Source: a virus. Taken from it: a stretch of 26,302 nt of DNA. Positions 14,166 through 25,619 of this stretch are shown here, one piece after another (position 1 is the stretch's first letter; the number at the start of each line of letters is the position of its first letter). Where the stretch lies: positions 1 to 26,302 of IMG/VR virus record IMGVR_UViG_3300035670_001111; one strand, written 5' to 3'. Below the pieces are notes generated by a model. The model was not told the origin of the DNA. It worked only from the letters and a program-made list of their open reading frames with translations, and ran no database searches. Position numbers and translations under genes: made by a program.

Positions 14166-16133
14166 TTATTGTCCTCTTATACTTCCACCACTTCCACCAC
14201 CACGACTACCACCACTTCCAGTTGTTGATGCTGATGTCAACCCTAGATCCGTCAAAAATTTCCATATTTTATCTAATAGTCTATCGTCTGTGTTTGGTAT
14301 AGATATTTTTCTTATTTCACTAACGATTTGTTCTCTAAATGATTTGACCTTACTGGTATCTGGCTCTGAAAAAGCACCTTTGAATTCATCTCTAACTGTG
14401 AGAACAGATTCAGTTGAAAAAGTTGTTCCATTGAATTCTTTGAAGATTTTTGAAATCTCACGTAAACTTTCAAGTTGTAGAGAGTTTCGTTCTATTCTGT
14501 TTCGACTGACTATTGAAAGTATTTCTGCTACTCTCAGTCGTTCTTCTCGTTCTGTTAAGAAATCATTGTTTGGTGTATTCGCCCCAGCCCCACTTCCACT
14601 ACTTGTAGTTGTAGAAATCAGACCAGCTTCTTTCAGATCAACCCAAATGGTGGATACTTTATCAACATTAGTTCTATTGTATTTCAGATCTTTCACTTCA
14701 TTTGAAATTCTCTGTTTAGTCTCACGTACTATTTTCAATTGTTCTTGATCAGTTATGTAACTTGAACCTTCTACAGCCTCACCCAAATCAAGAATAATTC
14801 CTAATGTATCTCTAACAAGTCTTAGAGTGAAAATTGTTATTTTTGGATTTCTAATGGCATCAACAGATTGTTGTCTTCGGTTGTTGAATTCAGTTTCGGT
14901 TATAGGTAATGGACTTTCTGATTCATTTGAACCCCCACCTGTTTGATTATTAGTTGAACCACCACCACTTCCTGTATTAGTTCCATTTGATCCACTTACC
15001 TGTGATGATTGTAGGGCAGCAGCTATAGCTCCGATACCATCCTTGAATGCATCAAGTTGAGCCTTTGCCTGTTCTTCTGCTCGTTTAGCCTGTTCTTCAA
15101 GTTTCGATGAGAGTGAATCGAAGGCATCGGCTGCATTTTCAATTTGTGAAGTTACAGATGTACCGAGATCGGTCAAGGTCGAATCTATTGTTTCATTCAA
15201 TGTAATTATCTGTGAATCTTTTACCTCTACCTCGGCAACTTTTGCATTGAACTCTACTGATAACTGTTCTATAGCTTCTAAAAGATTATCGTTAGTGTCT
15301 GTTAGATTTTGTTGAACCTCTTCCGCCTCATTCAATTGCAATTGTAATTTTTCTATCTTCGTTTCCAAAGCGGGTACACTTGTAGAATCTTCATTGATCA
15401 GTCTTTTCAACTTTTCCAAGAAAACAGCTTCATCTGCACTTACATTTATATCTGTGGCCCATTCTTCTGCCTTTTCTAAGACATAACGTTCAGCATCTAC
15501 GGCTTCTGGTATACTAGTAAACGTTTTATCTACAACGTAATCAAAACTTCTTGGCATATATCTTTCAGTTGTGGTATCAAATGAAACAAATCCTCTGTTC
15601 TTCAGGTAATTCTTGAAAGAAACTATTTTACCAGTCGAGTCTCTTTCAACCGGAACCGTGGGGTCTAAGTTTACCTCTGTGTTTCGTCTGTTTTGTTCAT
15701 CCAGTATTGCCTTCAGATTCTCAGACGGTAAGACTCCATTCTCGTTTCCTGTTAGTATTTTCCTAACAATAAATCCAAAGAACGGATCCAATTCTTCTTT
15801 TGTGAGTGAATCGAACTCATTTTTTGCAACTTCAATTTTACCTACCTGAACTGCCTCTTCTATCAATTTTTCTCGAACGATATACTTTTTTACGTAATCG
15901 TAATCTGTTGATGATTTGAAATTTTTCAGTCTTTCCAATAGTACCTGAGTATCATCAGTTGCTATAACTGATTCTGTGACATTCTTGATAACAAGTCGAA
16001 CACCTTGACTTTCGAAAAAGTCTCTAAACTCTTGACTTGTATCAAACGAAAGATTACCATAAATACCAATCAGAGATTCTGCCTGTGATTGTTCTACATT
16101 TTCCAAAAACAAAAAGTCTTCAATTCGTATCAT
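14166..16133 (-). CDS. Coiled-coil virion protein with duplicated C-terminal domain and Ser/Gly linkers
   Basis: I do not recognise this 655-residue protein as a named family. Residues 1-245 are mixed helical. About 250-375 form a long coiled coil (ETKIEKLQLQLNEAEEV, later LEEQAKRAEEQAKAQLDAF). A Gly/Ser/Thr/Asn linker (379-404) leads to two related helical domains, about 409-506 and 524-633. Each begins with an ITE/LTE segment, carries an arginine/lysine-rich helix, and closes with a Trp-containing DK-W helix (DKVSTIWVDLKEAGL versus DKIWKFLTDLGL). Each is followed by another Ser/Gly tail (507-520 and 636-652). The start overlaps the preceding stop by 4 bases (ATGA), with AAGG upstream. Its place between the DNRLRE-like and 1341-residue baseplate genes suggests a baseplate part, perhaps a rod-and-hinge connector. 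Confidence 0.75.
   Translation of the reverse strand: MIRIEDFLFLENVEQSQAESLIGIYGNLSFDTSQEFRDFFESQGVRLVIKNVTESVIATDDTQVLLERLKNFKSSTDYDYVKKYIVREKLIEEAVQVGKIEVAKNEFDSLTKEELDPFFGFIVRKILTGNENGVLPSENLKAILDEQNRRNTEVNLDPTVPVERDSTGKIVSFKNYLKNRGFVSFDTTTERYMPRSFDYVVDKTFTSIPEAVDAERYVLEKAEEWATDINVSADEAVFLEKLKRLINEDSTSVPALETKIEKLQLQLNEAEEVQQNLTDTNDNLLEAIEQLSVEFNAKVAEVEVKDSQIITLNETIDSTLTDLGTSVTSQIENAADAFDSLSSKLEEQAKRAEEQAKAQLDAFKDGIGAIAAALQSSQVSGSNGTNTGSGGGSTNNQTGGGSNESESPLPITETEFNNRRQQSVDAIRNPKITIFTLRLVRDTLGIILDLGEAVEGSSYITDQEQLKIVRETKQRISNEVKDLKYNRTNVDKVSTIWVDLKEAGLISTTTSSGSGAGANTPNNDFLTEREERLRVAEILSIVSRNRIERNSLQLESLREISKIFKEFNGTTFSTESVLTVRDEFKGAFSEPDTSKVKSFREQIVSEIRKISIPNTDDRLLDKIWKFLTDLGLTSASTTGSGGSRGGGSGGSIRGQ
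14178..14228 (-). repeat. Low-complexity Gly/Ser codon run at the C-terminus
   Basis: The plus strand shows a CCACCACTTCC-type repetitive run that encodes the flexible Gly/Ser/Arg tail (about residues 636-652) of the 655-residue protein. It is an in-frame linker, not an independent DNA element. Confidence 0.7.
14922..14999 (-). repeat. Low-complexity Gly/Ser/Asn linker codons
   Basis: This encodes about residues 379-404 of the 655-residue protein (SGSNGTNTGSGGGSTNN and onward), joining the coiled coil to the duplicated domains. It is likely a flexible hinge. Confidence 0.7.
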
Positions 16134-17302
16134 CTAGAAACCTTGAAGTAATAATTGTTGTCAAATATTTTACTAACGTCACCACCATCTGTTTCTGATT
16201 TTATCAATACTCTGTAAAATCTTTCTGGTTGAAATGAATTCATCCACAATTTGAAATAATTACCATTACTGTCACAACTAATTTTAGAACCAGTTTCATC
16301 AAATCTTATGATTATTTCATCAGTATGTGCATCTCGTATTTCATAATACGACGAAGTTGGTAAGTAAAAATTACGTGTATAGTATGATTCCGTTGTGTAA
16401 GTCTTTGTTGGATACTTTTCATTTACATTTATTCTTATCTTTGTCTTTTCTTTTTCAGAATATGTTTGATTCAATTGAAGATTTACAACTGAATTATCAA
16501 ATGGTATCTGAGTCAGACTTCCCGTAGAAAATACTGAGTCATCCCAAACGACGTGGAGTCTTGGAACATATATGGTGTTACTATCTGTTGAAAAGAATTT
16601 CAAACTAACAAGTGTTTGATTCGATGACTCTATCTCATTTGAAAACTTTAGGATGAAACCTTCATTATCAAATCTACCGGAACCAGTTATCCATTTGTTA
16701 ACAATTGATGTGACATCCATGTAAATATCGCCCGTTTCAAATGAAAATGACTGTGTACATTCAGCACCATCCCAAGTCCACCAAGTACCACCACCAACGG
16801 TTGAAAAATAAGAACCCGTTACGGATGCATATAGTGCTCCAAATATGAGATCGGCATCTACCCACGACTCGGATATTTCGTCCCATTCGTAATTCAAACC
16901 ACCAGTTACTTCGGTAACTCCCCACAAATTATTGAGTGCCTTTGATGATCTGTATTTCCAAGAAACTCCATCAGTAGTTGCAGGATTGTTTGCAAATTTT
17001 CCAGTTCCATTTGTCCAAGAACCACTTACAGGATACGCATATACTGTATATTCTTGTGGTATCTCTCTGACATCTGATGCTCTTAGTTGTAGATAGTATT
17101 TTGCATCCGCAGATATTTTTCCGGCATTTACATCAGATTCTATACTTGATACATCGAACTTCAGAAGTACTCGACTGTTGTATTTTGAAGCACTACCAAT
17201 CAATTCATGTGATAATTCCAAAACAGAATCTGTTCCGGTATTCAGAGATTCTGTTTTTTCGTAAATAGTAGCATCAAATTTTGGATATATTGTGTATATC
17301 AT
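16130..17302 (-). CDS. DNRLRE-like beta-sandwich virion protein
   Basis: This 390-residue protein begins with the pattern of DNRLRE-type carbohydrate-binding-like modules: YPKFDATIYEK, a short linker, then SRVLLKFDVSSI and YLQLRASDV, and YTVYAYPVSGSW followed by aromatic-rich loops (WKYRSSKALNNLWG, GGGTWWTWDG). FETGDIYMDVTSIVNKW also fits this fold, ending near residue 245. The remaining about 145 residues are beta-rich and may be a second domain (RINVNEKYPTKTY, YYEIRDA, RFYRVLIKSETDGG). Both ends overlap neighbours by 4 bases (ATGA), so it is translationally coupled between gp6 and the coiled-coil protein. The location implies a baseplate protein, possibly a glycan-contacting one; no catalytic motif is seen. 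Confidence 0.7.
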   Translation of the reverse strand: MIYTIYPKFDATIYEKTESLNTGTDSVLELSHELIGSASKYNSRVLLKFDVSSIESDVNAGKISADAKYYLQLRASDVREIPQEYTVYAYPVSGSWTNGTGKFANNPATTDGVSWKYRSSKALNNLWGVTEVTGGLNYEWDEISESWVDADLIFGALYASVTGSYFSTVGGGTWWTWDGAECTQSFSFETGDIYMDVTSIVNKWITGSGRFDNEGFILKFSNEIESSNQTLVSLKFFSTDSNTIYVPRLHVVWDDSVFSTGSLTQIPFDNSVVNLQLNQTYSEKEKTKIRINVNEKYPTKTYTTESYYTRNFYLPTSSYYEIRDAHTDEIIIRFDETGSKISCDSNGNYFKLWMNSFQPERFYRVLIKSETDGGDVSKIFDNNYYFKVSR

Positions 17303-19206
17303 CCGAATGCCCTCACTCTACCGATAATGTCATTATCAGGATATTTGATTTCAAAAATAGATGGGTCAAGAGATGGGAAAATAATACCATCCTTTGTTGC
17401 TCTTTCTATACTATATGCATTTGGAGAGTACCCCAATGCAATATCATTTAGGTTTGTAATCTTCACACTAGAAACTGTTTGCACACCCTCGACCTTATCA
17501 ATTTCGGTATAAATGTTACTTATCACGATAGGTTGGTTTATTTGCCACTTCTTTATATCAAAATATTGTTTCAATCTATCGATACAACGAAGAATTACTT
17601 GGTTTCCGTTTTGATCTGGAAGTGTAATGATGTCAAATTCAACACCAATGTTTATTATGTATGCATCTTTTATGTTTATTGCATCAGTCAACATTCTGTG
17701 ATAGTTTATGTATGTTATCAAGTTTTCTTTAGTTGCATCATTTAGTGTTGTTAGTTTATTGGATGCATCATACCCTAAAACATAGAAATTCAAAGCAAGA
17801 TCATTTGCAACACGATCACTGTTGAATACAGATTCTTCAGTGAGTTGTGTATCTTTTGTTATGTATGCCTTTGCAATAGAACCATATTTTTGAGGTAAAC
17901 TATAAGCACGTATGATGTAGTCTTCTTTTGTTACTGCTCGATTTTGAGCTGCAAAAGAAGCAAGTGCATTCTGACGTATTTCATCTAATGTTTCTCCGTC
18001 TTTACCACCAGTAGCTGGTTGAGGATTTGTTACAGCAAGACTACCTATCACTTGTTGATATAATGTATTGTCCAACCCTGTTTCATCAAGATTTATTGTT
18101 CTCTGAGAAATTCGAGTCAATGAATCTACTTGAACATTGTCCCTAAGTCCACCACCTTGTGTATAGAAAATTCTTAGAGTAGTATTGCTAGGTGCTAAAC
18201 CATAAGTCTTTGTGTATAGAAAATTGGATGGGTCTATATCAACTGATGTTGATGATTCAATTCCTGTAAGTGACTTACCTACCAAATCTGGATTAGGTAT
18301 CAGTAACTCATCATCGAATTCAGAAACACCGGCACCAAATTGTATTTCGTATGTATCTTCTGCTCCAGTCTCTGTTCTAAAAAGTCTAGTTGAAAATCGT
18401 CTAGCAACTTTTCGTAATTTCAACAAATATGGAGTTTCACTTCTATGTGCCGATAACGATACATCATTTCTTGGTATGTTTATTACGGGTTCAAATATAG
18501 TGTCTTGTGCTAAGTGTGGTACATGATGCCACTTATTGCCATCAGAATCTATGGCGTATAAAATTTCAATTATAGATGAGTCAATCAAATCAACTTTATC
18601 ATACGGAAGTGGTGAACCAAATTCAAAGTCCTGATACTTTAGTAGACCAGAAACAGCTTTTACTGATTTCTTCAAAAGATAGTATGTTGGTTCATTGAGT
18701 ATATCATCTATTTCAAAAATAGAAACTTCTGTTGGGTCAAATGAACTACTAAATTTGAAGTCTAAATAATCAATGGTTCTGAATTCTATGTTTGAATCAC
18801 CAGAATGGGCAACTAACATTCCTGGTTCTATTGCAAATGCATAATTCCAATCGGGTCTGTTATTTGCACCAGTTCCAATTGCAGGAACTAACTGAAACAC
18901 ATCTAATATCACGTTAGCAGCAACAGAAGTCTTTGGCTTATAACCAAAAGACTGAGCCAGGTTTATCACATTCTGAGTCTCTGTTGCATTCAATATCATA
19001 GACTCCTGCAACGAAACATCCGTATAGTATGATAATACATCACCAACGTATGCGGCCATTTCCATAAACATCATACCAGGAGATGCTTCATTGAAATCCT
19101 GATACGTATCTGGAAAATAGTTCTTGGCAAAGTCAATTAGACCTTGACGTAAAGATCCGAAATCTCTAGATAGATAACGAACGTCCTTTTTTATTAGATC
19201 AGCCAT
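17299..19206 (-). CDS. gp6: Baseplate wedge protein gp6 (gpJ-like family)
   Basis: This 635-residue protein matches the T4 gp6/P2 gpJ baseplate family, which forms the inner wedge ring that holds the hub and triggers sheath contraction. The diagnostic N-terminus is present: RYLSRDFGSLRQGLIDFAKN followed by YFPDTYQDFNEASPGMMFME, AAYVGDVLSYYTD and LNLAQSFGYKP-like text (VINLAQSFGYKPKTSVAANV). The central GGKDGETLDEIRQNALASFA, then NRAVTKEDY, is also typical of the family. The C-terminal half (near 525-600) includes DRLKQYFDIKKWQINQPI and VEGVQTVSSVKI, typical of the last wedge domain. Length is close to T4 gp6 (660 residues). Its ATG shares a base with the gp25 stop (TAATG), keeping the two wedge proteins coupled. 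Confidence 0.93.
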   Translation of the reverse strand: MADLIKKDVRYLSRDFGSLRQGLIDFAKNYFPDTYQDFNEASPGMMFMEMAAYVGDVLSYYTDVSLQESMILNATETQNVINLAQSFGYKPKTSVAANVILDVFQLVPAIGTGANNRPDWNYAFAIEPGMLVAHSGDSNIEFRTIDYLDFKFSSSFDPTEVSIFEIDDILNEPTYYLLKKSVKAVSGLLKYQDFEFGSPLPYDKVDLIDSSIIEILYAIDSDGNKWHHVPHLAQDTIFEPVINIPRNDVSLSAHRSETPYLLKLRKVARRFSTRLFRTETGAEDTYEIQFGAGVSEFDDELLIPNPDLVGKSLTGIESSTSVDIDPSNFLYTKTYGLAPSNTTLRIFYTQGGGLRDNVQVDSLTRISQRTINLDETGLDNTLYQQVIGSLAVTNPQPATGGKDGETLDEIRQNALASFAAQNRAVTKEDYIIRAYSLPQKYGSIAKAYITKDTQLTEESVFNSDRVANDLALNFYVLGYDASNKLTTLNDATKENLITYINYHRMLTDAINIKDAYIINIGVEFDIITLPDQNGNQVILRCIDRLKQYFDIKKWQINQPIVISNIYTEIDKVEGVQTVSSVKITNLNDIALGYSPNAYSIERATKDGIIFPSLDPSIFEIKYPDNDIIGRVRAFG

Positions 19207-19703: not shown

Positions 19704-20132
19704 TCACACTCCCTTTTTTTCGTTGATCTTTGCCATCAGGGCAGAATAATCTCGTGTAAGTGCATTAGATACTTCCGGTGTTAGTTCCGATTCACTATAT
19801 CCATCAGGAACCATGTTCGGAACGTGTCTACCAGCATGAATTGAATCGGTAGTGAATCTCATCTCAGGATAATCGTCATCCATAGCTGCTTCCATAGACA
19901 TTCGTGTTTCATTCAAAATATCTTGAATGCTTGATAAACCTGTTTTAGATGATTTTGGTTTCTTGACTTGTTCTTTTTTCAATACACCAAGTTCCTTCAT
20001 AAGACTCATACCATGATTTAGAGTTTTTACGTCATTTTTCTTCGTTGATTCATTCAATTTTTTGTCAAGTGCATATTCTATTTCTTCTCGAATTATAGCA
20101 CGAATTTGTTTCAAAAATTTTGAAGTATCCAT
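19704..20132 (-). CDS. Small conserved virion-type protein of unknown function
   Basis: This 142-residue protein, rich in Lys and Glu, has an N-terminal helix (SKFLKQIRAIIREEIEYALD), a central helix (LNHGMSLMKELGVL) and a Met/Asp-rich segment (MSMEAAMDDDYPEMRFTTDS). I recall similar small proteins next to gp25 in T4-like aquatic phages, but know no function. I place the start at the second ATG, 20132. AAAGGA touches the first ATG (20138) but lies 6 nt from the second, the normal spacing; the longer form would add MF. The end supplies the ribosome site for gp25, so the two are probably coupled. It might be a scaffold or assembly factor of the wedge; this is a guess from position. Confidence 0.7.
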   Translation of the reverse strand: MDTSKFLKQIRAIIREEIEYALDKKLNESTKKNDVKTLNHGMSLMKELGVLKKEQVKKPKSSKTGLSSIQDILNETRMSMEAAMDDDYPEMRFTTDSIHAGRHVPNMVPDGYSESELTPEVSNALTRDYSALMAKINEKKGV

Positions 20133-20152
20133 AAACATTCCTTTGAGTGTTA

Positions 20153-23100
20153 TTAGTGTCCACCTGTAAATTCACTTGGATTCAAGATGGAATCGAATTT
20201 ATAGTTATTGAGATCAATGCTTCCACTTAGATAAATATCATTGTAGGTATGTATGTTGAATGATTGATCGGTCAAAGCCAACTTATTGTCTTGTGTCAAT
20301 TTGATTTCACTAGTTCTAGTGTAGACGGAATCGGATACGTTACCCCTAAGTATGTTGTATGCCTCGGCAAAAAGTTTTGTGTTCTTGGGGGAATTCGAAT
20401 TTTCAATCGATAACATATACTCATTCAATGCCGGTGTTCTCTTTATTCTACCATCCAATCTACCATTTACAGTCCAACCATTCTTTTTACCTCTCTTTAT
20501 GATGTAAACATCATTTGAAGGTGAGAATTCTTTTAGGGAATAATAAGTTTTGAACCCATGTGTTGCACCAAACTTAGAGACACGATCTAGTTGTATGTTT
20601 CCAGCAAGAGTTATAAACCCACCAATTGTTGTTCTCAGTAGTAATTCAGCGTGACCTTTTCTTGTAGCTTTATCAAAATAAGCAATAACAGCGCCTGGAA
20701 AACTTCTTGGTATTTCAGTCAAAGGTGCCGTATTTTTCAATTTCAACCCATGTCCCTCATTGACATACTTCTCTACATTTGCTATTTTTCTGAAGTTTAG
20801 GAAATCTTCATCTGATTGAAACACCCCGTTCTCTTCTAACAAGAAGTTTAGATATAAACCTGCCCATTCAGGATTATATGCCCAGTTAGGTTGTTCTTCT
20901 GTACCAATTCCTCCTTTTGAGAATAAAGACCCAACAGAACGTTGAGTTGTTTTTTGGAATGTAACGGCAGCTGCCAATTCACTACCCTCACCGAATCCAT
21001 AAGGAGCTACATTGTTGAACATACCTACATTACCAGGATTCAAAAGAAGTGCAACATCAATTGGACTCATTATAGAATCAAGATACCCGTCAAATAACTT
21101 TTTCAAATTTACAGGTGTAGATTCACTCTTACCAAAATCAAAGTATGATTTGAATTGGGTAGGTATTCTCTCAAATCCAAAGTTGGTATAAGTACCACTA
21201 TTCATTTGAGCAAGTGTTGGATTATTTATCTTTCCAGTAGCACCCCTGTAAATTATGTATGGGTTTGATTGTACTGGAGCAGATTGTGTCAATGTTTGAT
21301 TTGATAATTGACTTCCAATATCATCGGTAGGTATTGTGTTTGTCAATAAAGTCGGTGATCCTTCTACCGTAACTAATTGAGTAGAATCAGTTGTTGTACT
21401 TTGACCTCCCTGTGGAACTTCAATATTCAATACTTCGTTCTCTCTAGCTAATACCCATTCAGAGAATGGACGGAAGTCTTTGGGGAAATGTTTTACGGGC
21501 TCTTTAGTTATGTTTGTTTTTTCTTTTGAATTCAAGAGAGCTTTCTGTGTAGAAATGACTTTGTTTATAGCAGTATCAAAAGCTTGTTTTTTCTCTACTG
21601 CACTCTCTATGGTTGAAACCACATCTCCAGAATATGAATCTTTTAGAAGATCAACTGATTGTTTTGCATCATCTAATTTAGCTTGAGCCTCATTGGCAGC
21701 TACAACTTTAGGATCCTCTAATAATGTTTTTCCTTTATTCAGTAAATCTTCAGATTGCGTTTTCAATGAATCATATTCTTTTTTCACAGAATCCAGTCTG
21801 ACCTGTCCTTCTTTCTTTAGAGACTCTATTTTAGTCTTTGCCTCTAGCTCCAATTGATTTGCCTTTGCAATAGCGGCATCTCGGAGATTACCCGGTAAAT
21901 TTTTAGCTTCTTCTAATAATTGACCAGCCTCATTTCTCAAGTTATCCACTTCTGCCTTAGCTTCATTCCAAAGACGACCACCTTCTTTCCAAGCAGCCTC
22001 ACCTTGTTTCTTCAAGTTTTCATATTCTTTGTAAGCCTTAGATGCTTTATCTGCTATGGCTTTACCCTCATCATAATACTTTTTTCCTTGCTCGTATATC
22101 TTCTTACCTTCTTCAATAATTGAACCAACACTAGCTTGTAGTGATTTTAGTTCTTCAAACGAGTTTATGGCATCTAATGCTCCAACGTCACCTAGAGTTG
22201 AAGTAAGAGTTGATAGATCACCGTCATAAAGTGCCTTTGCCTGATCTGCATACTGAGCTATATCATCCAATTCACCCAATCCCGGTAGACTGAATGAAGA
22301 TAGTGAAGATAACAATGATTTGAATGATAACCCACCGGCAAGTATAGTCGCTAAATCAGAAAGTTTTGGTGGTGTTAGTTTCTTTAGTTTTATATCGAGT
22401 TTGTCTACTTTATCACCCGGATCATATAGGTCAAATTCTTTCAGAGAACCACTATTTATGGTACGTGTTATACTATCAGTGGCATCGTCACCCAATCCTG
22501 TTACATCACTTACCACCGTTCCAATACCACTAGAATTTATGTAATTAGAAACTCTTTTTTCCACTTCACTTCTAGCTTCTTCCAAATCTTCGGTTTTGAT
22601 TTCAAGTTGTTTTTGTAAAGAGTTTATTTTTGCATCCATAGTGCCTATAGAAGACTCTATGCGATTTAGTTTAGACGTTAGGTCTGAGATTATTTCCTCT
22701 GCATTTTTACCGTTGGAAAAAACAGCCTCCAACGTTTTATTTAGATTACCTTCAGGATTCTTCTGTTGTGATTTTATCTTATCCCAAAACTGTGCCGGTA
22801 AATCTTCATCTATTTCGTCTGTTCCTGACTGTTTTTCAATAATGTTCTTGTACTCGTCCAATACGGTTTTCAATTCATTATATTCCAATTCCATTGCATT
22901 CTTTTTAGCAGACAGCTCGTCTACTTGTGTCTTGACTGCCCTTATCGTTTCATCTTCTTGAACCGACGGAACACTTGACCAGGTAGAATTATCAGTCAGA
23001 TTTTCAGCAGTGTCTTGATTTTCTCCAAATTGATCTTGGTAATCAGGACGTGTATCTGTATTTTGAGAACGTCTATACCTGTCTAGTAATATGAGTTCAT

Positions 23101-24259
23101 TATCATCAGTAAGATATTTCAATCCAACTAACACTGTGTTTTCATTTCGTTCAAGACTAAGTGGTGGTAAAGTTTCTCGTACAGCCTCCAATGATGAGTA
23201 TGTATATTCTTCAATATCATAACCATCTGGAGTGTCATCCTGAGGTTCTTGAAATTCGACGTTAGGTTCATCATCCACAACAGGTTGATCGGTAACGGTT
23301 CTTTCATCTGTAACAACTGTACCGTCTTCGTTTTCTACGTTACCAGTTTCTGATGTAATTGTATCTGGTGGATTAGATGCTAAGAGTGATTTTACACCCT
23401 CAGGATTTTCTAATGGATTGTTGAACTGCCAATGCCAGTATTCATTCGTTATGTTACTGAAAAAATACCTATGTGCATTTTCCGTAAAGAACATATACCG
23501 TGCAAAATTACAACTATTAGTCCAGTTTGGCAAATAATATGGGTCTGGCATCCACCACGATCCTACATATGTAAAGAAATCTATTGCACGACCAGCTGCA
23601 TGATTACTTGAACAGGCTCTTTCACCATAACATTCGCCAACGTTTATACTCTGACATTGAGATGTACTTAGATTATTTGGAAAATTTGCACCTGCAGCTT
23701 TTGCTGGTGCACTGTTTTTACATCCAGTTTTATTTTTGGTATATTCAAAAACACGCCTTGTAGTTTGTTTTTCAGACATACAAAACGCGTTACTTCCACC
23801 TTTATTCTCAAGACCAATTGCCATATTACCAACAGTTCTGGTTCTATTTCCACATATACTTTTTACCCAAGGGTCATTATTCATTGCGGTAACAAGATTT
23901 GTAAGGTATTTCACTACCACCTTACTTTGTTCATCCCAACATAGTGGCAAGCCTTTTGACTTTCTCGTTTTTTCATATGATGAATATGAATTACCCCCAT
24001 TCAAATTAGCAACATATGGGTGAACACCGGATGATCCTTTTCCAGCTCCCTTCCCATTTACAAGTGCAGTACCTACACCCGAACACTTTCTCCATTGATC
24101 CCGTGTTCCAATCTTTATAAAACGAATACCGGCTTCAAATTTTGAAGAAGTTGGTTTTATGGTACACCCAAACAAATTACCCGCTACACCAACTGGCCAA
24201 CCTCTACTATTTGCTTTTTCCGACTTATGATACCAAGATCTCGGTGATGGTACTGCCAT
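20153..24259 (-). CDS. Giant hub-associated protein: M15 (VanY-like) peptidase + coiled coils + cysteine-less NlpC/P60-like domain
   Basis: This 1368-residue protein starts with a zinc peptidase domain of family M15 (D-Ala-D-Ala carboxypeptidase/VanY type) at about 100-285. The motifs SNHAAGRAID (H220, D227) and NEYWHW (E273, H276) give the three metal ligands and the general base. A Thr/Asp/Glu-rich linker (300-440) leads to coiled coils at about 440-575 and 700-910; the second has Gly-Lys-x-x-Tyr heptad-like repeats. About 1115-1235 resembles a TIGR02594/NlpC-P60 amidase core: NPEWAGLYLNFLL, FPGAVIAYFD, GHAELLL and AGNIQLDRVS. The usual Trp-Cys is Trp-Ala here (W1132-A1133). All ten cysteines lie in the first 250 residues. 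A strong AGGAG ribosome site precedes the ATG. It follows the spike gene, so it probably acts in cell-wall entry as part of the hub or tail tip. It is unlikely to be a free endolysin, because it has no signal peptide and is very large. Confidence 0.82.
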   Translation of the reverse strand: MAVPSPRSWYHKSEKANSRGWPVGVAGNLFGCTIKPTSSKFEAGIRFIKIGTRDQWRKCSGVGTALVNGKGAGKGSSGVHPYVANLNGGNSYSSYEKTRKSKGLPLCWDEQSKVVVKYLTNLVTAMNNDPWVKSICGNRTRTVGNMAIGLENKGGSNAFCMSEKQTTRRVFEYTKNKTGCKNSAPAKAAGANFPNNLSTSQCQSINVGECYGERACSSNHAAGRAIDFFTYVGSWWMPDPYYLPNWTNSCNFARYMFFTENAHRYFFSNITNEYWHWQFNNPLENPEGVKSLLASNPPDTITSETGNVENEDGTVVTDERTVTDQPVVDDEPNVEFQEPQDDTPDGYDIEEYTYSSLEAVRETLPPLSLERNENTVLVGLKYLTDDNELILLDRYRRSQNTDTRPDYQDQFGENQDTAENLTDNSTWSSVPSVQEDETIRAVKTQVDELSAKKNAMELEYNELKTVLDEYKNIIEKQSGTDEIDEDLPAQFWDKIKSQQKNPEGNLNKTLEAVFSNGKNAEEIISDLTSKLNRIESSIGTMDAKINSLQKQLEIKTEDLEEARSEVEKRVSNYINSSGIGTVVSDVTGLGDDATDSITRTINSGSLKEFDLYDPGDKVDKLDIKLKKLTPPKLSDLATILAGGLSFKSLLSSLSSFSLPGLGELDDIAQYADQAKALYDGDLSTLTSTLGDVGALDAINSFEELKSLQASVGSIIEEGKKIYEQGKKYYDEGKAIADKASKAYKEYENLKKQGEAAWKEGGRLWNEAKAEVDNLRNEAGQLLEEAKNLPGNLRDAAIAKANQLELEAKTKIESLKKEGQVRLDSVKKEYDSLKTQSEDLLNKGKTLLEDPKVVAANEAQAKLDDAKQSVDLLKDSYSGDVVSTIESAVEKKQAFDTAINKVISTQKALLNSKEKTNITKEPVKHFPKDFRPFSEWVLARENEVLNIEVPQGGQSTTTDSTQLVTVEGSPTLLTNTIPTDDIGSQLSNQTLTQSAPVQSNPYIIYRGATGKINNPTLAQMNSGTYTNFGFERIPTQFKSYFDFGKSESTPVNLKKLFDGYLDSIMSPIDVALLLNPGNVGMFNNVAPYGFGEGSELAAAVTFQKTTQRSVGSLFSKGGIGTEEQPNWAYNPEWAGLYLNFLLEENGVFQSDEDFLNFRKIANVEKYVNEGHGLKLKNTAPLTEIPRSFPGAVIAYFDKATRKGHAELLLRTTIGGFITLAGNIQLDRVSKFGATHGFKTYYSLKEFSPSNDVYIIKRGKKNGWTVNGRLDGRIKRTPALNEYMLSIENSNSPKNTKLFAEAYNILRGNVSDSVYTRTSEIKLTQDNKLALTDQSFNIHTYNDIYLSGSIDLNNYKFDSILNPSEFTGGH
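20555..20917 (-). other. NlpC/P60-like domain lacking the catalytic cysteine
   Basis: This segment encodes about residues 1115-1235 of the 1368-residue protein. The order Trp-(Ala)-Gly-Leu-Tyr, Asn-Phe-Leu-Leu, Phe-Pro-Gly-Ala, Gly-His-Ala-Glu and Gly-Asn-Ile-Gln follows the TIGR02594-type cysteine amidase layout, with the histidine (H1203) kept but Ala where Cys is expected. There is no cysteine anywhere after residue 250. It is probably a binding rather than a cutting domain. The assignment rests on motif order only. Confidence 0.45.
21530..22162 (-). repeat. Long coiled-coil repeat region of the 1368-residue protein
   Basis: About residues 700-910 are almost uninterrupted charged helix. 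Between about 717 and 740 there are recurring GKKIYEQ, GKKYYDE, GKAIADK seven-residue units, followed by looser 11-residue-like spacing. This suggests a rod or fibre-like spacer between the peptidase and the C-terminal domain. Confidence 0.65.
23405..23962 (-). other. M15 peptidase domain (VanY-like), active-site residues intact
   Basis: This encodes about residues 100-285 of the 1368-residue protein. Zinc ligands H220, D227 and H276 and catalytic E273 fit the SxHxxGxAxD and ExxHW patterns of the D-Ala-D-Ala carboxypeptidase/VanY/VanX group. The domain is cysteine-rich, which is atypical for cytoplasmic relatives. Confidence 0.85.
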
Positions 24260-24278: not shown

Positions 24279-25619
24279 TCAAATCAAGTTGCTGAAAGAT
24301 ATACCACCTGAGAGGTCTCCACCTAATTTTGTAGGAACAGGTAGTACAAAATTTGTTTGTTTTAGCTTTTCAAACTTTGCCAATTCGGATTTCTTGGCGC
24401 CACCGGCAAACTCATTTACGAACGCAAACTTACTAGCAAGTGCCGGTAATCTTGACAAGAACAAGTTTAGTTGAGTAACATAACTAATATATTCACCTGC
24501 AAAAAGTGACGGAGTTGTTGGCCCCCAACTCGTTCCATGTGTGTCTCTTGCTAATGTTTGGTTCATTTCAATTAGAAGATGAAGTATTGAACCAAGTAAA
24601 TCAACGACCCTATCACCTAGTAATAGTGGAGATGTAGCATTTAGACCAAGTGATATTTTAGAAGCCTCTAACTCAAGAATTTGTTTTGCGTTCAGTGCAA
24701 GACATCTCTCGGTTGCAAATCCAATTCCTTCTTTTGCAAAACCAACAATCTCTTGTTTTTTAGAGTTCAGAATAATTCTATCAGAAGCAATTATAACTTG
24801 ATTTCCACCAAAGTCATTTTTTCTAAACAGATCTATTTCCTTATCAACAAGAGAAGGTGAGTATTTTGAAGCAGGTGAAAACTTTACTTTCTGTCCTGAT
24901 GTCATCCATATCGATGAGTCATCATTATCAGGACTTTCAATATGAAATTGATTGAATGACTTTTTGTCAACTCTTGGATTTGTTCCATTTGAAATTATGG
25001 TGATTGGATTACCGGTTGCACCAGTACCCTTATCCCAATTTGGATTTGAAATATACTTTCTTCGTAAATCAACAGTTGAACCAAGACGTATAGACTGTCC
25101 CCATCTACCCTCGATGATCAGATCACCAGAAAAAGGTTGAATTGGAAACAAATCCTTTCGTTCTGGAAATGTTGGATCAATTGTTTCCTTTATAACACTA
25201 GAATCAGTTATCTTTGTGGGTATGCCGAGTACAGCAGATGTTATTTTTTCATTTTGTGGTCTACTATCTAATTGAACCCGTGAGGCACCAGCTAAACCGT
25301 TATGATGTACCGAACTTTGTATTGAGATCGGCATCGTGTAGTAAAATTCCTTAGTAGATGCAGCACCGGCGTGATGTGGTGTTGGTGCAAGACAAACAAA
25401 AACTATCTCACCAATAATTGGAATCTGTTTTATGTTTGCATGAAGGGCACGGGCCTGAATTACATCGTTTGGACTTCTACTAAGTCCACTACTAAGTAAT
25501 TTACAGTATATAGTATAGAGTCTATCTCTTGTTTTCTGAGTATAGTCTACTGAGACAACTTCTGCAGCTGCCCATTCAAAATCTACGCCATCAAGATTTA
25601 TCTTCTGTGGATTTGCCAT
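24279..25619 (-). CDS. gp5-like baseplate central spike/hub protein with OB-fold region
   Basis: This 446-residue protein resembles the gp5-like spike proteins of T4-type aquatic phages, which sit at the tip of the tube and pierce the outer membrane. Residues about 55-130 look like the OB-fold (IKQIPIIGEIVFVCLAP). The segment QPFSGDLIIEGRWGQSIRLG followed by ST at about 161-182 is the pattern I recognise for these proteins. Residues about 270-330 contain short alternating beta units (NQVIIASDRIILNSK, KQILELEASKISLGL), consistent with a triple-stranded needle. I see no T4 gp5-type lysozyme domain, and the wall-cutting role may have moved to the M15 protein encoded next. The ATG lies 29 bases inside the end of the previous gene, with GAGG about 12 nt upstream, suggesting coupling. 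Confidence 0.8.
   Translation of the reverse strand: MANPQKINLDGVDFEWAAAEVVSVDYTQKTRDRLYTIYCKLLSSGLSRSPNDVIQARALHANIKQIPIIGEIVFVCLAPTPHHAGAASTKEFYYTMPISIQSSVHHNGLAGASRVQLDSRPQNEKITSAVLGIPTKITDSSVIKETIDPTFPERKDLFPIQPFSGDLIIEGRWGQSIRLGSTVDLRRKYISNPNWDKGTGATGNPITIISNGTNPRVDKKSFNQFHIESPDNDDSSIWMTSGQKVKFSPASKYSPSLVDKEIDLFRKNDFGGNQVIIASDRIILNSKKQEIVGFAKEGIGFATERCLALNAKQILELEASKISLGLNATSPLLLGDRVVDLLGSILHLLIEMNQTLARDTHGTSWGPTTPSLFAGEYISYVTQLNLFLSRLPALASKFAFVNEFAGGAKKSELAKFEKLKQTNFVLPVPTKLGGDLSGGISFSNLI

Follow-up and report, generated by a model that had tools for sequence, protein, structure and literature searches.

A phage baseplate-locus protein that probably pairs an M15-type peptidase with a CHAP/NlpC-type domain lacking its catalytic cysteine

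The window, by which we mean the whole stretch of 26,302 nucleotides analyzed here (virus record IMGVR_UViG_3300035670_001111), contains a gene for a protein of 1368 aa in a cluster of baseplate genes. Its open reading frame occupies exactly 20153-24259, as originally predicted; the coding strand is the minus strand, and the plus strand across the same interval has many stops. The genes of the locus and the main parts of the protein other than its putative enzymatic domains are as follows.

24279..25619, minus strand: 446-aa neighbour, probably an OB-fold plus beta-helix spike (gp5-like role), as suggested by motifs and position (alignment A8)
20153..24259, minus strand: 1368-aa baseplate-locus protein (M15-type region, coiled coils, putatively retired CHAP/NlpC domain); open reading frame call, AGGAG ribosome site 5' of the ATG
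23675..24259, minus strand: N-terminal cysteine-rich part, residues 1-195; C32, C59, C107 and C160 align in relatives
22505..22945, minus strand: first coiled-coil region, residues 439-585, strongest at 518-572; heptad periodicity
21515..22159, minus strand: second coiled-coil region, residues 701-915, strongest at 710-795; heptad periodicity
19704..20138, minus strand: 144-aa conserved small protein, found at the same place in L004, L006, L009, L010 and L012
19206..19700, minus strand: gp25-like baseplate wedge protein (PF04965, phrog_261)
17299..19206, minus strand: baseplate wedge gp6/J-like protein (phrog_6, phrog_219)

The order spike-like gene, lysin gene, small protein, gp25, gp6 is common to the relatives (contigs of related phages, given here by L numbers), and the gp25-like and gp6-like genes lie downstream of the lysin gene, within the same baseplate cluster. 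In the Microcystis phage Mel-JY01 (PP395634.1), the slot where the window has its M15 fusion, between the spike-like gene and the pair formed by the small protein and gp25, is occupied by an annotated chitinase (COG3179; L013:6424-7455), and in Flavobacterium phage immuto the same slot holds a helical-looking protein of 371 aa. The slot beside the spike-like gene looks like an exchange site for putative wall enzymes (CHAP/NlpC, M15 and the annotated chitinase).

The 1368-aa protein has ten cysteines, every one of them within residues 1-250 (window:23510-24259, minus strand), and C32, C59, C107, C160 and C216 are among those kept in L004 and L006, which suggests that the conserved ones form structural disulphides or metal sites. 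The coiled coils that had been proposed for the middle of the protein are borne out at residues 518-572 and 710-795, where hydrophobic heptad periodicity is significant (shuffle p <= 0.0005), and more weakly at 439-478 and 800-860, but not over residues 850-912, where the periodicity test found none. Such coils would make the protein elongated and probably oligomeric. A large protein so rich in coiled coil, with a weak PHROG tail match on the coil, might instead be a tape-measure-like or tail-fibre protein and not a wall-cutting lysin. We regard this as very unlikely, given that the gene sits between the spike-like gene and gp25, that its length varies and that it is split in relatives, which a tape measure would not easily tolerate, and that the Mel-JY01 slot carries an annotated chitinase.

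The N-terminal cysteine-rich part is followed by a region resembling M15 peptidases.

23360..23674, minus strand: M15-type metallopeptidase region, residues 196-300; motif kept in L004 and L006, subthreshold Pfam M15_4 and VanY matches
23600..23602, minus strand: H220, predicted zinc ligand (motif, conservation)
23579..23581, minus strand: D227, predicted zinc ligand (motif, conservation)
23441..23443, minus strand: E273, predicted catalytic base (motif, conservation)
23432..23434, minus strand: H276, predicted zinc ligand (motif, conservation)

By motif this site is complete, H..G.A.D (H220, D227) being followed by E.WHW (E273, H276), so that the four residues named in the original prediction are in place. 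The chance expectation of this motif pair in a protein of the same composition is about 3e-8, and a relaxed version of it appeared in none of 20,000 shuffles. Moreover, L004 and L006, which are 27-31% identical over the region, keep all four site residues together with R224, P238/D239 and NAHR. Profile scores are low: PF13539 reaches 17.5 bits (E 0.0062) against a gathering cut-off of 25, the match of PF02557 to the region in one relative (E 0.022) is also below cut-off, and a sequence search of the PDB with the region gave no match. The metal and base residues, H..G.A.D and E..H, are those of the M15 family, which includes VanX, VanY and M15 endolysins of phages, and their spacing in the window presumably matches that in VanX; the window protein differs from these enzymes in scoring below the Pfam cut-offs and in its long cysteine-rich N-terminal extension. 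From its motifs we take the region of residues 196-300 to be a peptidase of M15 type whose site is complete, although it is not a curated M15 member. It would be the working cutter of the protein, probably opening cross-bridge or stem peptides once the tail arrives at the wall.

The second putative wall-related domain lies near the C terminus.

20462..21070, minus strand: papain-like (CHAP/NlpC-P60-type) domain, residues 1064-1266, delimited with AlphaFold, fold searches and alignment A6
20861..20863, minus strand: GCA codon of Ala1133, where catalytic members have Cys; 14 distinct relatives carry Cys (TGY), and 4 sequences, the window included, carry Ala (GCN)
20651..20653, minus strand: His1203, retained catalytic-type histidine, invariant in 17/17 sequences of A6
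20597..20599, minus strand: Asn1221 of GN, candidate third catalytic-type residue, invariant in 17/17 sequences of A6

Ala1133 stands in the context NPEWAGLY and His1203 in KGHAE, and the protein has no Cys past residue 250; the earlier claim of an alanine in place of the cysteine, with the GHAE histidine kept and a C-terminal half free of Cys, can thus be read directly from the translation. The window domain alone matched no family in Pfam, NCBIfam or PHROG, and PDB profile searches with the C-terminal domain yielded no match or mostly coiled-coil matches. Among the matches outside coiled coils, TIGR02594 recurs (9 of the 17 members, best E 0.0048). By score the domain is not a TIGR02594 member: the cut-off is 70.55 bits, Cys-bearing relatives reach at most about 16 bits, and the window has no match. 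When the coiled-coil insertion carried by Cys-bearing relatives was removed, the TIGR02594 match in several of them was colinear from the Cys helix to GGN.

AlphaFold gave a mean pLDDT of 37 for the C-terminal domain with five close sequences; the deeper alignment of 17 sequences gave a model with pTM 0.73 and core blocks mostly at pLDDT 75-94, in which the first core helix begins close to residue 1133 and a core strand close to residue 1203. The best matches in the BFVD fold search were a CHAP protein (E 1e-4), TIGR02594 and C51, and the VIA search placed Tse1 first (Z 6.7, rmsd 3.8 over 132), with NlpC/P60, MepS, PcsB, CHAP endolysins and a phi812 baseplate chain in the rows after it. A Z of 6.7 is moderate and within reach of unrelated folds, and we place weight on how uniform the list is and on the sequence link. 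What emerged from the model and both searches was not an unrelated fold but that of papain-like amidases and endopeptidases, in keeping with the TIGR02594/NlpC-P60 assignment first proposed. The fold and the motif order (Cys helix, GH strand, GGN) are shared with TIGR02594, CHAP and NlpC-P60 enzymes, from which the window domain differs in having neither the Cys nor a profile match of its own. On the evidence of the model and the aligned motifs, we take the C-terminal domain to be a homologue of the NlpC/P60-CHAP papain-like superfamily but, because the Cys is absent at 1133, not a catalytic member of it. N1221 is a candidate for the third catalytic-type residue.

Thanks to the relatives, the state of position 1133 can be followed across the family. 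Cys is found in 14 distinct phage-contig relatives, which near-copies (L017, L018, L025 and L026; L030 and L032) reduce to about ten independent lineages, and Ala in four sequences: the window, L001, L004 and L005 (= L006). This is the comparison that the original prediction had proposed, and it marks 1133 as the predicted catalytic position in the family. The two codon types, TGY and GCN, are two bases apart, and both GCA and GCT occur as synonymous Ala codons, the window and L001 themselves differing in this respect. The window domain is 56-60% identical to those of L004 and L005/L006 and 31-37% identical to 13 further distinct sequences in A6; the 14th Cys relative, L049, is 33% identical over a shorter stretch and keeps both GH and GGN as read by eye. 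Within the Ala clade the cleft residues W1132, H1203 and N1221 are unchanged. The homologous domains of L009, L010, L012, L018, L021, L027, L029-L032, L035 and L049 are C-terminal in proteins of the same slot and keep the His and Asn, whereas they differ from the window in having the Cys, a long insertion between Cys and His, another N terminus and no M15 seen in the contig. The insertion, a long coiled coil that separates the Cys helix of the papain-like domain from its GH strand, was noted in L009, L010, L012, L018, L021, L027, L031, L035 and L049, and the Ala clade lacks it. A search for homologues of the domain in 50,697 phage records and in bacterial genome contigs found none; matches in Bacillus and Vibrio phages, with E values of 0.03-0.6, were judged too weak to count, and L002 was discarded as a coiled-coil chance match.

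In the domain tree the Ala sequences form one fully supported branch, and a tree built from the gp6-like neighbour also unites the Ala group in one branch (support 97/99). Cys is likely the ancestral state at 1133 and its loss derived, because L049 (with Cys, its placement weakly supported) and Mel-JY01 fall outside both groups in the gp6-like tree, and because Cys is the state of the superfamily. The branch between Ala and Cys domains is long (2.15), and the gp6-like tree keeps both clades close (0.08), as would be expected if the Ala clade had taken up a whole foreign gene in which the M15 region and a Cys-less domain were already joined. We find such a horizontal replacement rather unlikely: branches inside the Cys clade are similar in length (2.08 to L030/L032), which points to a fast gene anyway, and the synteny is unchanged.

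Retention of the histidine and asparagine could also mean that the domain is still an enzyme, using another nucleophile or His-assisted chemistry only. This is extremely unlikely, since there is no Cys after residue 250 and no Ser or Thr at or beside 1133 (WAGLY), and Ala is fixed in 4/4 sequences. For the core of the C-terminal domain, the window and L001 give a dN of 0.013 and a dS of 0.245 (dN/dS about 0.05); between the window and L004, identity is 60% in the papain-like region, 29% in the M15 region and 23-34% in the coils. Conservation is highest in the C-terminal 370 residues and extends there to stretches beyond the papain-like core. These substitution patterns show the putatively retired domain to be under strong purifying selection, not debris, and it would still have a job because it is the best-conserved part of the protein.

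As to what that job is, the retained cleft suggests a ligand and the conserved surroundings suggest docking. It is quite possible, although we do not favor it, that the domain is purely structural, a docking module always needed for assembly, with no wall ligand, for which loss of the Cys became costless after M15 arrived. The conservation of the C-terminal 370 residues beyond the papain-like core fits this view, as does the hydrolase of Staphylococcus phage 11, which reportedly has a structural role in the particle (reference cited in PMC6116005). Against it stands the invariance of W1132, H1203 and N1221 in the Ala clade, a weak argument at about 60% overall identity.

Presence of M15 and loss of the Cys go together. 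M15 is present wherever an Ala contig reaches far enough to cover the N-terminal side (L001 ends before the M15 region), fused in the window and L004 and in an adjacent upstream gene in L005/L006. The M15 profile matched, among 16 records, only the window and the L004 and L006 contigs; it gave no match in ten Cys-clade contigs (fragments of 20-37 kb), Mel-JY01, immuto and LR756508, and no M15 motif was seen in six frames of the Cys loci. Since these contigs are fragments, M15 may be encoded elsewhere in the genomes they come from. The coupling of M15 and Ala may be a single evolutionary event. In L005/L006 residues 28-582 of the window protein are matched by a protein of 785 aa, which continues for about 280 residues more, and residues 523-1344 by one of 832 aa. 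Because the gene is split there, the M15 and CHAP parts can be separate chains; the two proteins might associate through the first coil, because both match its stretch 523-582. The original prediction of one protein joining the two domains therefore describes the window and L004 but not L005/L006, where one gene encodes M15 and another the coil and CHAP part. Of that prediction, the M15-type site and the papain-like domain without its nucleophile stand, and the gene lies in a baseplate cluster; the peptidoglycan binding and the tail-tip rod that it proposed are conjectural.

We therefore propose that the 1368-aa protein is probably a virion-associated peptidoglycan hydrolase from the baseplate locus of a T4-like contractile-tailed phage. 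Its C-terminal papain-like domain would derive from an ancestral cutter, as relatives with Cys, His and Asn indicate, and would have lost its nucleophile in the M15-carrying clade. We think it fairly likely that this is a baseplate lysin in which cutting shifted from CHAP/NlpC to M15 while the old domain stayed on in a binding or docking role; for that role, holding a ligand from the wall in the former cleft and docking of the lysin in the baseplate appear about equally plausible. More tentatively, at somewhat less than even chances, acquisition of M15 would have freed the older CHAP/NlpC domain, and the dead domain would have been kept, more strictly than the live one, to position the new enzyme by binding the wall or by docking in the baseplate.

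The individual parts are of known kinds, and the lineage-matched replacement that we propose is a novel variation on them. In RipD (Rv1566c) of Mycobacterium tuberculosis, an NlpC/P60 domain is reported to have been adapted for binding peptidoglycan without catalysis (Both et al. 2014, as cited in PMC6628586). As described in that citation, RipD resembles the window protein in keeping an NlpC/P60-type domain with an altered catalytic site in a wall-related protein, and differs from it in being bacterial and not joined to a second active peptidase; binding is reported for RipD and only predicted for the window. In T4 the tail lysozyme gp5 has its muralytic domain inside the puncturing device (PMC6116005). 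Both proteins would bring wall-cutting activity from the baseplate region of a contractile tail, the activity being predicted in the window, whose enzyme is a separate protein beside the spike-like gene and has M15 and CHAP/NlpC-type domains. By analogy, the 1368-aa protein may act as a tail lysin of the kind exemplified by T4 gp5, except that its enzyme is encoded apart from the spike-like gene. The original prediction had drawn the same contrast with gp5, which agrees with the 446-aa neighbour, where we recognized no hydrolase domain and obtained no weighty Pfam, PHROG or PDB match (including a spike-like profile searched against the PDB), but is incomplete in that the neighbour's identity as a spike is itself a reading of motifs and position.

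Pseudoenzymes of phage tails are as a rule guessed from a single sequence; in the present case both versions occur in the same slot of closely related phages, the gp6-like proteins of the Cys-bearing and Cys-less phages being about 80% identical. The presence of the second enzyme tracks the loss of the Cys, which makes a binding versus an assembly role of the pseudoenzyme directly testable.

Some further features of these loci are worth recording. The roughly 280 extra C-terminal residues of the M15 protein of L006:2811-5168 (also L005:412-2769) contain the motif GDGGGSTCFVVNG; a NAGPA-like (phosphodiester glycosidase) reading of this extra domain from GDGGGSTCFVVNG found no database support and was rejected. 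A late-sigma-like protein (T4 gp55-like, by eye) is encoded slightly upstream of the spike-like gene at L006:367-1098 and L015:3322-4032. Finally, the gene after gp6 in the window (16130-17302, minus strand) encodes a 390-aa protein with a CBM96 match just above cut-off (E 4.9e-6), and homologues of equal length follow gp6 in syntenic relatives.
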